Shown here in pieces: positions 2,297 through 17,289 of a DNA stretch of 64,000 nucleotides. How positions within the stretch are numbered: the first letter of the stretch is position 1; every line of letters starts with the position of its first letter. This DNA comes from Alphaproteobacteria bacterium. Its GTDB lineage: Bacteria; Pseudomonadota; Alphaproteobacteria; Micropepsales; Micropepsaceae. A program made the translations under genes and the position numbers. Below the pieces are notes generated by a model. The model worked only from the letters and a program-made list of their open reading frames with translations, did not search any database and was not told the origin of the DNA. The stretch is taken from the NCBI GenBank assembly GCA_025350465.1, contig JANXXU010000048.1, forward strand, positions 1 to 64,000, in the 5' to 3' direction.

Positions 2297-2755
2297 ATGG
2301 CCGGGCTTGGCGAGAAGCTAAGAACGTATCAGGAGGACGCGGCTCGTCGCCAAGCCGCCCGTGCTCGACTTACCCCATGGGTGAGATTTGCGACGATGTA
2401 CATAGCGATATTCTGCCTCTTGTTCGTCGTCTGGTTGTTGTTTTCGACTTGTCTGTATCTACACGGTCAAATGCATCCGCATACTGGTTCGTCCATGAAC
2501 GATTTGCACGGGGTGTCGGCAATACTGATTGCGGCTTCCAGTTTCCTCGCCGCGGTCCCGCTTGCACTAATGCTTGGAAATCTCGCGCTTTGGATTATCC
2601 CGCCGTTGCGACGGGCTCACAACGAAGCGTTTGCGGATGCCCCGAACGCGTCATTCAACGATGGCATGCGGCAGCTTGCGACGTTTGCGGCGCTGGTCCT
2701 GCCGCTCTGTCTCGTAGCGGCCGCAGTCGGAATCATCGATCCCTGGCACAACTAG
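2297..2755 (+). CDS. Hypothetical small membrane protein, three predicted TM segments
   Basis: A 152-residue protein that I do not recognise. It begins with a charged amphipathic stretch (LRTYQEDAARRQAARARL). Three hydrophobic spans follow: near residue 35 (MYIAIFCLLFVVWLLFSTCL), near 80 (ISAILIAASSFLAAVPLAL, approximate) and near 135 (LVLPLCLVAAAVGII). ATG 2297 comes 2 nt after the crotonase stop, so it is likely the third gene of that operon. Base composition is slightly less GC-biased than its neighbours. Confidence 0.7.
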   Translation: MAGLGEKLRTYQEDAARRQAARARLTPWVRFATMYIAIFCLLFVVWLLFSTCLYLHGQMHPHTGSSMNDLHGVSAILIAASSFLAAVPLALMLGNLALWIIPPLRRAHNEAFADAPNASFNDGMRQLATFAALVLPLCLVAAAVGIIDPWHN

Positions 2756-2783
2756 GGACTAGGGAGAGAATTCTCACATCTTT

Positions 2784-2834
2784 CCTCACCCGCCGGGCGG
2801 GGGAGGTGCTGAGCTAGCGAAGCGGAGGGGGGAC
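2784..2834. repeat. Hairpin-plus-tail repeat, left copy of pair 1
   Basis: A REP-like unit. Arms CCTCACCCGC (2784-2793) and GCGGGGGAGG (2797-2806) form a stem with one mismatch. They are followed by a tail ending in GCGGAGGGGGG that abuts the stop codon of the DUF559 gene. An inverted copy with the same architecture lies at 3219-3278 on the other side of that gene. Confidence 0.75.
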
Positions 2835-3233
2835 CTAATCAGCACGAAGGTGCGGTGGGATCTGGCGCCAGATCATCTCGAGCACATCGTCGAGCCGCTC
2901 ATAAACGTCGGCGTTTGCAACGCGTACCTCCCGCCAGCCGAGCTGGGCAAAAGACGTGCGCCGCCGCGCATCGTGCGCCAGCTCCGCCGCCGTTTGGTGC
3001 GTTTCGCCGTCGACCTCGACGATCAGCTTCAGCGCGAGGCACGCAAAGTCAGCGACGTAAGGGCCAATTGGATGCTGTCGGCGAAAGCGCAACTCTCGCA
3101 TCGCATCTCGGCGCAAGCGCGACCACAGTATGACTTCGGCGCTGGTCATCGTGCGACGCAGCCGCTTGGCAAGCGGTCGGGAGCGTTCTTCGCGTTCGCG
3201 CATAGCGGTGCTTCGACTTGCCCCCTCCGCCAC
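2835..3233 (-). CDS. DUF559 endonuclease-like protein (Vsr/PD-(D/E)XK-type fold)
   Basis: A 132-residue protein of the DUF559 family, related to the very-short-patch-repair endonuclease fold. Landmarks are the basic N-terminal helix (LAKRLRRTMTSAEVILWSRL), the RFRRQHPIGPYVADFACL segment carrying the first acidic residue, and the KLIVEVDGETHQ strand with the E-x-D of the putative active site, followed by GWREVRV. Its substrate is unknown. The longest start is GTG 3233, inside the flanking repeat; ATG 3203 would give 122 residues. The stop touches the left repeat and the 5' end runs into the right repeat, so the gene is enclosed by an inverted repeat pair. Confidence 0.85.
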   Translation of the reverse strand: MAEGASRSTAMREREERSRPLAKRLRRTMTSAEVILWSRLRRDAMRELRFRRQHPIGPYVADFACLALKLIVEVDGETHQTAAELAHDARRRTSFAQLGWREVRVANADVYERLDDVLEMIWRQIPPHLRAD

Positions 3234-3278
3234 TCGCCGTTGGCTCGTGACACCTCCCCCGCGAAAACGCAGGGGAGG
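3219..3278. repeat. Hairpin-plus-tail repeat, right (inverted) copy of pair 1
   Basis: Stem CCTCCCC (3253-3259) with GGGGAGG (3272-3278), extended by GCG/CGC around an AAAA loop. The tail CCCCCTCCGC (3221-3230) faces the DUF559 gene. Reverse-complemented, this unit matches the unit at 2784-2834 in order: CCTC..CCGC, GCGGGGGAGGT, GAGC, GCGGAGGGGG. Confidence 0.75.
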
Positions 3279-3293
3279 AAAGTGTAACGCGCC

Positions 3294-4904
3294 TCACCCT
3301 TTTGCAATCGCCTCCGCCGCCCTCCGTGCCGTAATGATACACGAGAGCAGGAAGGTGCCTTCGAGGGCGCGCCAGCCGTGGCTGCCGCCGCCGCCGAAGC
3401 CTGCGGATTCACCCACTGCATAGAGGCCCGCGATGGGCTCGCCTTTTGCGTCGAGAGCGCGGCTCTGCAAATCGGTGACGATGCCGCCGAGCGATTTGCG
3501 CGTGACCACGTGCTCGCGGATGGCGATCAGCGGGCCCGCTTTCGGATCGAGGATCGCGATGTTCTTGGCGAGCCTCAACCTGTCACCGCGATATTCGCGC
3601 AAGGTTTCGATCTGCTTTCGCTGTGCGTCGACCCATGCGGGATCGTCGAGCGTCGCATCGAAGCTTTTGATCTCGTCTTCCAGCACGTGCAGATCGACGC
3701 GCACCGGATTGTTCATCGCGTTCATCCGCTCGACGAGCTGATCGACGCTCGTGGCCGTCGCGAAGTCGGGCGAATGCGCGGTCAATTCATTGACCAGCCA
3801 TTTGTTGCCGGCGAGCGTGTCGAGGACGAAGCGCAGGAAGCGCCGTTCGCGCACGGCGGGATTCCAATCGGCGCCGGATGCGGCAAGCTCCTTCAAGGCA
3901 ATGCGGCGATTGAGAATTTGCCAGGTATAGCCGTGCGGCGCGCGCGCGACGCGGCGTACCATCTCGTGCGTGTCGAAGCCCGAGATGATCGGCGGTGTCA
4001 GGCGTTTGCCGGTGGCGTCGACCCAGAGCGCCGATTTGGGCGGCACCAGGCTCACGCCATGATCGGGCCATTCGGGGCGAGGATGGCGCACACCGCCGGC
4101 GTAGTTCCACATGCGCCCGACATGCGTGAGCTGCGCGCCCGCGCTCGCCGCCGCTTCGAGCGCGCGTCCGTCGGCGGACGGGTGCGTGCCGAGCAAGATC
4201 GTCTCAGGCGGTTTCGCGCCGCCGCCCGGATCCCAATATCTGCGCACCTGCGCGAGATTGCCGCCGATGCCGCCCGCCGCGATGACGACCGCGCTCGCCT
4301 CGACGGAAAAATCTTCGCCGCCGTTTTTCCCTGAGCAACCGACGACTGTACCGCCCTTCGTCTCAAGCCGTTCGACGCGATGATTGAAGAATGTCTTCAA
4401 GCGCTGTGCCTGAGGATGCGTGCGCAACGCCGCGATGATCTGTGTGACGACGCGTTTGCCGGTTCCCCAGCTCAAATGAAAGCGCGGCACGGAATTGCCG
4501 GGCACGTCGAGCCCGCGCTCGACCCACAAGACGACGGGGAGCCAACTCAAGCCTTTGGCACGCAGCCAGTCGCGCCCATCCGGCGTCGCGCGCTCGACGA
4601 GATGCGCCGCCCATTTGCGCGGCCAAATTTCGTCGGGGCCGAATTGTGCAAAACTCTCCCAATCCTTCAGCGCACGCTCGGGCGTATCGGCGATGCGCAT
4701 GCGCCGCTGCTCCGGGCTGTCGACGAAGAAGAGCCCGCCGAAAGATTCCAGCGCCGAGCCACCGAAGCGCTCGGGCCCGGCCGTTTCGAAAATCGCGACC
4801 GACTTACCGGCATCGAGCAGTCCGAGCGCTGCAGTGACCCCCGCGATGCCGCCGCCGACAATCGCCACGTCGCATTGGTGTCGCTGGGTCATGGCGAGAG
4901 TCAT
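3294..4904 (-). CDS. FAD-binding dehydrogenase (fumarate reductase/3-ketosteroid dehydrogenase-like)
   Basis: A 536-residue flavoprotein with an N-terminal Rossmann motif (DVAIVGGGIAGVTAALGLLDAG), a second AGGIGGN element near residue 215, and a C-terminal FAD-binding block (GLYAVGESAGFGGGGSHG). It resembles the soluble FAD-binding dehydrogenase branch of the FRD/KstD superfamily, which dehydrogenates or reduces C-C bonds; the substrate is unknown. Two in-frame ATGs exist (4904 and 4892). The only SD-like sequence, GGGAGAGG, comes from the hairpin repeat at 4906-4913, too close to 4904 but about 13 nt from 4892, so 4892 may be the true start. Confidence 0.88.
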   Translation of the reverse strand: MTLAMTQRHQCDVAIVGGGIAGVTAALGLLDAGKSVAIFETAGPERFGGSALESFGGLFFVDSPEQRRMRIADTPERALKDWESFAQFGPDEIWPRKWAAHLVERATPDGRDWLRAKGLSWLPVVLWVERGLDVPGNSVPRFHLSWGTGKRVVTQIIAALRTHPQAQRLKTFFNHRVERLETKGGTVVGCSGKNGGEDFSVEASAVVIAAGGIGGNLAQVRRYWDPGGGAKPPETILLGTHPSADGRALEAAASAGAQLTHVGRMWNYAGGVRHPRPEWPDHGVSLVPPKSALWVDATGKRLTPPIISGFDTHEMVRRVARAPHGYTWQILNRRIALKELAASGADWNPAVRERRFLRFVLDTLAGNKWLVNELTAHSPDFATATSVDQLVERMNAMNNPVRVDLHVLEDEIKSFDATLDDPAWVDAQRKQIETLREYRGDRLRLAKNIAILDPKAGPLIAIREHVVTRKSLGGIVTDLQSRALDAKGEPIAGLYAVGESAGFGGGGSHGWRALEGTFLLSCIITARRAAEAIAKG

Positions 4905-4905
4905 A

Positions 4906-4970
4906 CCTCTCCCGCCACTTCGAAGGGAGAGGTAACGAGCGCCTTTTGGCGCGAGTGTGGTGAGGGAGGA
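4906..4970. repeat. Hairpin-plus-tail repeat, left copy of pair 2
   Basis: Arms CCTCTCCC (4906-4913) and GGGAGAGG (4925-4932) flank a loop containing TTCGA. A tail with GAGTGTGGTGAGGGAGG follows. The inverted partner is at 5004-5058. This copy lies at the 5' edge of the FAD dehydrogenase gene and supplies its only SD-like sequence. Confidence 0.75.
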
Positions 4971-5003
4971 CGATAAGCTGGGCCGGGCATGTGTTGAGGT
5001 TTA

Positions 5004-5058
5004 CTCCCTCACTACGCTCACTTCGTTCGCTGCCTCTCCCTCGAAGACGAGGGAGAGG
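5004..5058. repeat. Hairpin-plus-tail repeat, right (inverted) copy of pair 2
   Basis: An 11-bp perfect stem, CCTCTCCCTCG (5033-5043) with CGAGGGAGAGG (5048-5058), around an AAGA loop. The tail, with CTCCCTCACTACGCTCAC, points back towards the left copy. Only about 33 bp separate the two units. Confidence 0.78.
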
Positions 5059-17106: not shown

Positions 17107-17155
17107 CCTCCCTCTCCCTTCCTACTTCAGGAAGGGAGAGGGAGGGGTGAGGGAT
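17107..17155. repeat. Hairpin-plus-tail repeat, left copy of pair 3
   Basis: A perfect 17-bp stem: CCTCCCTCTCCCTTCCT (17107-17123) with its reverse complement at 17129-17145, around the loop ACTTC. The tail GGTGAGGGAT points right, towards the partner. The stem core CCTCTCCC/GGGAGAGG is the same as in pair 2. Confidence 0.82.
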
Positions 17156-17238
17156 GGCCGGCACGCGATGGTCAAAGGTCGGATTCTTGAGAAGGCGCCC
17201 GTACAAATCCACTACTGTCCGCAAACGACCCAAAGGTC

Positions 17239-17289
17239 ATCCCTCACCCGCGGCCCCTCTCCCTTCCAAAAGAATGGAAGGGAGAGGGG
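17239..17289. repeat. Hairpin-plus-tail repeat, right (inverted) copy of pair 3
   Basis: A perfect 15-bp stem: CCCCTCTCCCTTCCA (17254-17268) with TGGAAGGGAGAGGGG (17275-17289), loop AAAGAA. The tail ATCCCTCACCC (17239-17249) faces left, so the pair again has hairpins outside and tails inside. Confidence 0.82.

Follow-up and report, generated by a model that had tools for sequence, protein, structure and literature searches.

The code of the antiparallel purine triplex is G.GC, A.AT, and T.AT. Intrastrand triplex motifs (the PIT, BoxC, and TM repeats) were described previously, one of them in more than 260 genomes, and 23 copies including five inverted pairs were reported for Escherichia coli K-12 (PMC4666352, partial text). 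According to the same partial text, the E. coli motif formed a triplex in vitro with no sign of one in vivo by footprinting, deletions were described for E. coli, no mobility gene adjoined the E. coli motifs, and PIT motifs had neither promoter nor terminator activity; a term search of this text returned no instance of ycjD, DUF, endonuclease, or RAYT (PMC4666352). The CGTC-tagged REPs are palindromic, mostly alphaproteobacterial, and mostly dimers, and the accessible part of their description reports them without a dedicated transposase; it also describes GGGGWSAS ends, or TIRs (PMC3733652).

YcjD was earlier placed near Vsr (PMC1189080, in part), and Caulobacter VsrA, which has a DUF559 domain, was proposed to be Vsr-like. 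In Caulobacter without a cytosine methyltransferase, the SOS response required VsrA (PMC12907096, partial text). It may be, then, that a DUF559 protein causes DNA damage in living cells. Within the partial texts that the open-access literature offered, we found no report linking DUF559 or ycjD to triplex repeats, and an earlier report elsewhere is possible. Here, we describe a DUF559 gene enclosed by two triplex-type repeat units in a 64-kb stretch of DNA, the whole of which is called the window.

Results

A DUF559 gene lies between two inverted repeat units

The preliminary description of this DNA held that inverted copies of one unit bound a gene with their tails inside. The strict pattern GGGGGAGGTG-N5..30-GGAGGGGG indeed has exactly two matches in the 64-kb window, at 2799-2831 (+) and 3221-3260 (-), compared with a mean of 0.00 in 100 shuffles, and a second finder, which looks for a hairpin followed by a mirror tail, returned 2784-2831 (+) and 3221-3278 (-) around the DUF559 gene, the same limits of 2784-3278 as given before. 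Alignment of 46 of the 50 distinct units of the source genome revealed a sharp outer edge, CTTTCC / GGAAAG, beyond which there was no conservation, and the limits of the block were therefore set at 2780-3282. The features are as follows.

2780..3282, no strand: whole element, a tail-to-tail unit pair with the DUF559 gene inside (503 bp; 389 bp between tails)
2780..2833, + strand: left triplex-type REP unit with edge CTTTCC, imperfect hairpin CCTCACCCGCC / GGGCGGGGGAGG, spacer, and tail GGAGGGGGG
2835..3203, - strand: DUF559 gene from ATG, 122 aa, predicted Vsr-like PD-(D/E)XK nuclease
3219..3282, - strand: right triplex-type REP unit, in opposite orientation to its counterpart, with hairpin, second small hairpin, and tail GGAGGGGG on the gene side
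4906-4967 (+) / 5004-5058 (-): second convergent triplex pair, with arm AGGGAGAGG and tail GGTGAGGGA, of a class other than that of the DUF559 pair; its tails enclose no gene
17110-17157 (+) / 17237-17288 (-): third convergent triplex pair, with arm GGAAGGGAGAGGG and tail GGGTGAGGGATGG, likewise of a class other than that of the DUF559 pair; its tails enclose no gene

Each unit consists of a hairpin with pyrimidines in the 5′ arm and purines in the 3′ arm, a spacer (often with a second small hairpin), and a gene-proximal G-rich tail, and the outer edge of the right unit reads GGAAAG on the + strand. The right hairpin had a DNA folding z of -3.4, with 0 of 200 shuffles folding as well; for the imperfect left hairpin, the z was -1.6 and 15 of 200 shuffles folded as well. 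As had been noted, the left unit abuts the stop, its tail ending at 2831 and the stop codon occupying 2835-2837. The companion claim that the right unit overlaps the start holds for an alternative GTG at 3233, which would give a DUF559 protein of 132 aa, and fails for the ATG (gene end at 3203), which leaves the tail 17 bases outside the gene; the ATG start is the likelier. The pairs at 4906-5058 and 17110-17288 are each of a class different from that of the DUF559 pair, and beyond these three pairs the unit finder returned no further unit in the 64-kb window. Rfam had no match at 2600-3500.

The mirror, triplex-like nature of the tail was overlooked in the preliminary description. The left-unit tail GGAGGGGGG is the mirror of the 3′ arm GGGGGAGG, and across the DUF559 loci the tail is the reversed 3′ purine arm with A retained or changed to T (e.g., arm GGGAGAAGG, tail GGATGAGGG). 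Among the asymmetric arms for which there was a tail (160), 120 were better fitted by the mirror order and 4 by the direct order, and 36 were tied; for the 85 distinct arm-tail pairs, the corresponding numbers were 56, 4, and 25. When the alignment used G only, A or T was present in 154 of the 172 bases opposite A, a value with a mild bias toward the mirror because the aligned region ended at the tail from the earlier A/T scoring. Judged from base order, hairpin and tail together follow an intrastrand triplex code of the kind known from the PIT, BoxC, and TM repeats.

The enclosed protein has a Vsr-like predicted fold

The enclosed open reading frame matches DUF559 (PF04480) with an E of 7e-31 in Pfam, where the only other match was to MTES_1575, below the cut-off, and there was no HUH/Y1 match. 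NCBIfam gave a match below the cut-off to its DUF559 model, PHROGs gave a single weak match annotated as function unknown, and PADLOC-DB, which covers known anti-phage defence, returned 0 families at E up to 0.001. The Vsr/PD-(D/E)XK-like character proposed earlier was borne out by an AlphaFold2 model (mean pLDDT 91.1, pTM 0.83), for which the best solved structure match was NGO0050 (3hrl; Z 14.8, rmsd 2.0 over 94), itself a match to the DUF559 profile at E 1e-37. The homing endonuclease I-Bth0305I (3r3p; Z 12.6, rmsd 2.7 over 95) and Vsr (1cw0; Z 10.7, rmsd 2.5 over 99) also matched; structures outside the Vsr group had middling Z values and were left out. Vsr acts in the repair of T:G mismatches and I-Bth0305I in intron homing; neither is known from a position between REP units.

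Residues E23, D52, E63, D65, G66, and H69 are the same in every DUF559 domain compared (151/151), and the fold marks E23, D52, E63, D65, and H69 as the candidate active site. The dN/dS between paralogues was 0.14 and 0.21 (a third pair was saturated at synonymous sites), and by these ratios the DUF559 paralogues are under purifying selection.

Facing pairs are scattered through the source genome

The genome-wide unit search and pairing table that the preliminary description had called for yielded 54 strict units in the 4.06-Mb source genome, compared with 7 control matches. Twenty-eight of the 54 make up 14 gene-less facing pairs, whose tail-to-tail gap is 20-25 bp in 13 and 47 bp in one. These pairs are scattered in the genome at a short fixed spacing (13 of 14 at 20-25 bp), the arrangement by which REPINs are recognized. 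At the two DUF559 loci caught by the strict pattern, 389 and 413 bp separate the tails instead of the usual 20-25 bp, so that the DUF559 gene sits where an ordinary pair has its gap. The remaining strict units are single by this pattern, and some have an imperfect partner that escapes it (e.g., L274 near 18947). One 24-kb contig of the source genome (C34 of G000; L274, L275) carries a dense cluster of units that includes one DUF559 gene.

Sequence and alignments placed all six DUF559 genes of the source genome (6/6) among triplex-type units with four tail types: GGAGGGGG at L003, L004, and L005, GGGGTGGGGG at L001, GGGGTGAGGG at L002, and GGTGAGGGG at L006, a broken gene with an inverted match of 14 nt only. 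L005 is exceptional in that its DUF559 gene lies between two complete pairs. L003, L004, and L005, which share one unit class, form one starred clade on the DUF559 tree.

Presence and absence at related sites

In the nearest relative, G018 (∼80% identity), we compared four sites, chosen because both sides align, within two aligned regions. At 4 of the 4 sites the source genome has a facing pair and G018 has no intact pair; the junction edges were not placeable, and what is left at site 2 in G018 may be a decayed remnant, which makes loss possible. These sites are compatible with gain, loss, and replacement of pairs alike. As for the comparison of strains for empty sites that had been suggested earlier, the window block is absent from the orthologous G018 region, but ∼3 kb of other DNA lies there and not a precise empty site. 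Neither a precise empty site nor a target duplication was found at the G018 sites, in S. meliloti, or at E. coli sapF-fabI. The site orthologous to L005 in G018 (L286, C28) holds a facing triplex pair of another class and no DUF559; this site may attract triplex-pair elements.

Many records of S. meliloti plasmids contain the unit, which in RCAM1115 is shortened by an internal deletion from the 3′ arm to the tail, and no whole-element empty site was seen among the S. meliloti loci compared. IS110- and ISRm17-type transposase genes adjoin the triplex unit in several strains (L264-L273).

The DUF559 gene of E. coli is ycjD, between sapF and fabI; the ycjD stretch was matched in 3365 of 5426 E. 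coli genomes, and in 3308 over at least 80% of its length. The flanks of ycjD were inspected by eye. In strain 118UI, the downstream flank starts with a hairpin resembling that of a unit, its tail directed toward the gene; in K-12, the corresponding downstream copy is without part of the tail, and a complete unit is present closer to fabI; the upstream flank is a plain palindrome. With units on one side of ycjD only, E. coli represents a one-sided, perhaps decayed case. The three strains without ycjD that were compared have an efflux operon in its place, and thus no clean empty site; the operon at this position is identified as eef in the accessible part of PMC12817139. Across the sapF-fabI loci viewed (L243-L247), ycjD and the efflux operon alternate at one site, and a palindrome with CACCTCAT..ATGAGGTG is located just after sapF in both states in most of the strains.

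Units flank DUF559 genes in many bacteria

Left and right flanks were compared in inverted orientation, with a match defined as a score of at least 14. Within the source family (Micropepsaceae), 30 of 35 DUF559 loci had an inverted flank match (L057 was left out because of a short flank), compared with 0 of 35 displaced flanks; the match also appeared in 3 of 720 shuffles and in 0 of 30 PIN-domain genes of the same genome set. The corresponding values were 58 of 75 versus 1 of 70 displaced for DUF559 loci of named genomes (5 of 80 were left out for short flanks, and three of those five scored above 20) and 17 of 30 versus 1 of 30 displaced for a phylum sample. Direct-orientation scores of at least 14 were also obtained in 17 of the 35 family loci, and when left and right flanks were mismatched, 156 of 1225 combinations scored 14 or higher; this background probably arises from self-complementary hairpins, full pairs within flanks, and shared classes. 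Because of these scores, we made an explicit unit finder.

The unit finder was applied to 151 DUF559 loci (36 family, 80 named, 30 phylum, and 5 plasmid-collection records), which are mostly the best matches of each search and thus not a random sample of DUF559. A triplex unit was present on 242 of 298 usable DUF559 flanks, compared with 8 of 278 displaced flanks ∼0.8-1.1 kb away at the same loci and 1 of 52 flanks of PIN genes (4 of 302 DUF559 flanks and 4 of 30 PIN loci were left out), in agreement with the earlier expectation that DUF559 genes are flanked by the unit more often than chance. The tail pointed toward the gene in 196 of the 242 units and away from it in 46. For the 147 loci with both flanks, the tails were directed inward on both sides in 75, inward on one side with no unit on the other in 29, inward and outward in 13, outward with no unit on the other side in 17, and outward on both sides in 8. 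Both flanks lacked a unit in 5 of the 147; DUF559 genes of relatives without repeats, which had been named beforehand as the finding that would count against the proposal, are thus few.

DUF559 and the unit are paired in many bacteria that are not related to one another. A few MAGs assigned to Planctomycetota, Chloroflexota, and Thermodesulfobacteriota, bins that may be mixed, also have units beside DUF559. At L048, L051, and L066, the DUF559 frames seem to enter the downstream repeat, such that the C-terminus is partly repeat-encoded.

Unit class follows the DUF559 lineage

The left and right units were of the same class in 58 of 86 loci, compared with a mean of 12.8 and a maximum of 22 in 2000 shuffled pairings. 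On a tree of 150 DUF559 domains, with 112 rows labeled by unit class (loci with two differing classes or without a unit were left unlabeled), there were 47 class changes versus 70.4 after shuffling (minimum 64 in 300 shuffles). The named subset gave 25 changes versus 35.7 shuffled (minimum 30), and the family subset, which was not decisive, gave 10 versus 14.3 (minimum 10). Resolution of the tree is poor, only 17 of its 146 inner branches being starred, and a unit class and a DUF559 gene may both be common to related hosts.

Units and DUF559 co-occur across genomes

A generic unit pattern, covering only part of the unit classes, was counted in 398 genomes of the source's phylum (Pseudomonadota) that had already been searched for DUF559, a strong match being one with E at most 1e-10. 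At least two units were present in 94 of 110 genomes with strong DUF559 matches versus 22 of 288 without (Fisher p 4e-52), and at least five in 84 of 110 versus 15 of 288 (odds ratio 59, Fisher p 1e-46); the threshold of five is the fairer one because flanking units add about two per DUF559 genome. Within 16 mixed families, at least two units were found in 56 of 69 genomes with DUF559 versus 13 of 130 without, and 0 of 5000 within-family permutations were as high. The reversed pattern gave 73 matches in total versus 5456 for the generic one.

When matches with E up to 0.001 were accepted, at least five units were present in 87 of 145 genomes with DUF559 versus 12 of 253 without (odds ratio ∼30, hand count), in 43 of 213 with Y1_Tnp versus 56 of 185 without (odds ratio 0.58), and in 83 of 247 with PIN versus 16 of 151 without (odds ratio 4.3). 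The last ratio implies that part of the signal may be general and common to accessory genes such as PIN. The generic pattern detected fewer than two units in 16 of the 110 DUF559 genomes. Three of the 15 unit-rich genomes without a strong DUF559 match exceed 90 units, namely G199 (no match) and G220 and G359 (weak matches); G113, G258, and G321 are likewise unit-rich and have no DUF559 match. Another enzyme or a lost gene may account for such genomes.

Discussion

The flank association with its controls, the matched classes, the tree signal, and the co-occurrence argue strongly for the earlier proposal of a REP system without a RAYT, in which DUF559 is very probably the dedicated partner enzyme of triplex REP repeats. 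As a whole, the block is best explained, with a probability of roughly 0.62, as a gene-bearing REP-pair (REPIN-like) element with DUF559 as its nuclease and the gene-less pairs as non-autonomous elements. Each DUF559 lineage would then serve its own repeat class, and the short, scattered, gene-less pairs would be the non-autonomous form of the element. We infer that DUF559 cuts or moves the repeats, and the best mechanism on offer, toward which we lean, is that it cuts the folded unit and thereby spreads it. When a unit becomes single-stranded during replication or repair, its pyrimidine and purine arms would pair and its G-rich tail would fold back as the third strand. The Vsr/homing-endonuclease-like DUF559 protein would recognize this folded end and nick the DNA at or near its edge, and the nick would start repair or copying by which the pair, its own DUF559 gene included, is spread or renewed.

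A wider generalization is tentative, with the odds somewhat against it: DUF559 may constitute a separate class of REP-mobilizing enzymes, neither HUH nor DDE but of Vsr/homing type, that recognizes an intrastrand triplex at both ends of a pair and drives its copying, with lineage-specific repeat classes in Pseudomonadota and other phyla; ycjD/BoxC of E. coli would then be an instance that has decayed or been domesticated.

DUF559 could instead be a caretaker, i.e., a structure-specific nuclease that trims or resolves replication-blocking triplex units and is retained in genomes rich in them, with the units at its own gene serving self-regulation. Such a role accounts for the co-occurrence across genomes and for the Vsr-like fold, and it is in keeping with the shortened unit of one S. 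meliloti strain and the deletions described for E. coli (PMC4666352, partial text); however, the placement of the gene between two facing units of the same class, in a gap that measures 20-25 bp in gene-less pairs, and the unit-class signal along DUF559 lineages are not readily explained, and we regard this role as unlikely while giving it real weight. Improbable, in our estimate, is a Vsr-type mismatch repair function tied to cytosine methylation, with repeats that merely insert nearby or share variable regions. The Vsr-like role proposed for the DUF559-domain protein VsrA in Caulobacter (PMC12907096, partial text) and the position of Vsr among the nearest folds to the window protein are consistent with this function, whereas stretches ∼0.8-1.1 kb away at the same loci rarely have units (8/278), and the shared class of both units together with the tree signal require a specific link.

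It is very improbable that a RAYT/Y1 tyrosine transposase moves the repeats with DUF559 as a passenger, even though the arrangement resembles that of RAYT genes in REP pairs and the source genome has one Y1_Tnp match. Among the Y1_Tnp loci of the source family, of which 12 of 30 were left out at contig ends, an inverted match of at least 14 was found in 9 of 18 usable loci, all of other sequence, and the unit finder detected a triplex unit on 0 of the 36 flanks of these 18 Y1/RAYT-type loci; across genomes, Y1 presence runs slightly against the units (odds ratio 0.58). Several Y1 loci (L207-L236) have their own inverted ends, GGGGTCAG.. / GGGGACA.., which fit the GGGGWSAS ends in the accessible part of PMC3733652. 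That the units are transcription terminators or insulators gathering around small horizontally moved genes is likewise very improbable: G+C hairpins are generally common near gene ends, but PIN genes of the same genomes have units on only 1 of 52 flanks, terminators do not need a mirror tail, and PIT motifs were reported without terminator activity (PMC4666352, partial text).

Reading the block as a gene-bearing REP-pair element gives a candidate partner both to DUF559, a common domain that is still catalogued without a function, and to the triplex repeat, which is widespread and without an enzyme. E. coli ycjD, a DUF559 gene beside a triplex unit, makes the link testable. Should the triplex prove to be what DUF559 acts on, the protein would represent an enzyme with specificity for a naturally occurring non-B DNA end, and REP repeats would have a route of spread that does not need RAYTs.

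The comparison with described systems can be drawn as follows. In the partial text of their description (PMC3733652), the CGTC REPs have stems that start with AT and are equated with dRS3 and RPE, their unpaired tail is short and in most cases CCA, and no mirror tail is described; on the basis of these other stems and the short tail, an identity of the triplex units with CGTC REPs was dropped (PMC3733652). The window DUF559 protein has its fold in common with Vsr, I-Bth0305I, and NGO0050 (PDB 3hrl). The locus resembles the RAYT/REPIN system (REPtron) in that inverted REP units enclose the gene of an enzyme, pairs without a gene are dispersed over the genome, and the unit class goes with the enzyme lineage; in contrast to that system, the enzyme is a Vsr-like PD-(D/E)XK nuclease and not an HUH tyrosine transposase, the Y1 genes of the source family carry other repeats or none that were found, and the unit ends in a mirror tail, while the consensus at the foot of its hairpin is CTTTCC in place of a GTAG tag (46 aligned units, with the tail fixed by the search pattern). 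In structure, the unit resembles the PIT/BoxC/TM repeats, which combine a hairpin with a mirror G-rich tail according to the G.GC, A.AT, T.AT code, are intergenic, and form inverted pairs in E. coli (PMC4666352, partial text), whereas many units of the present analysis have a long spacer with a second hairpin.
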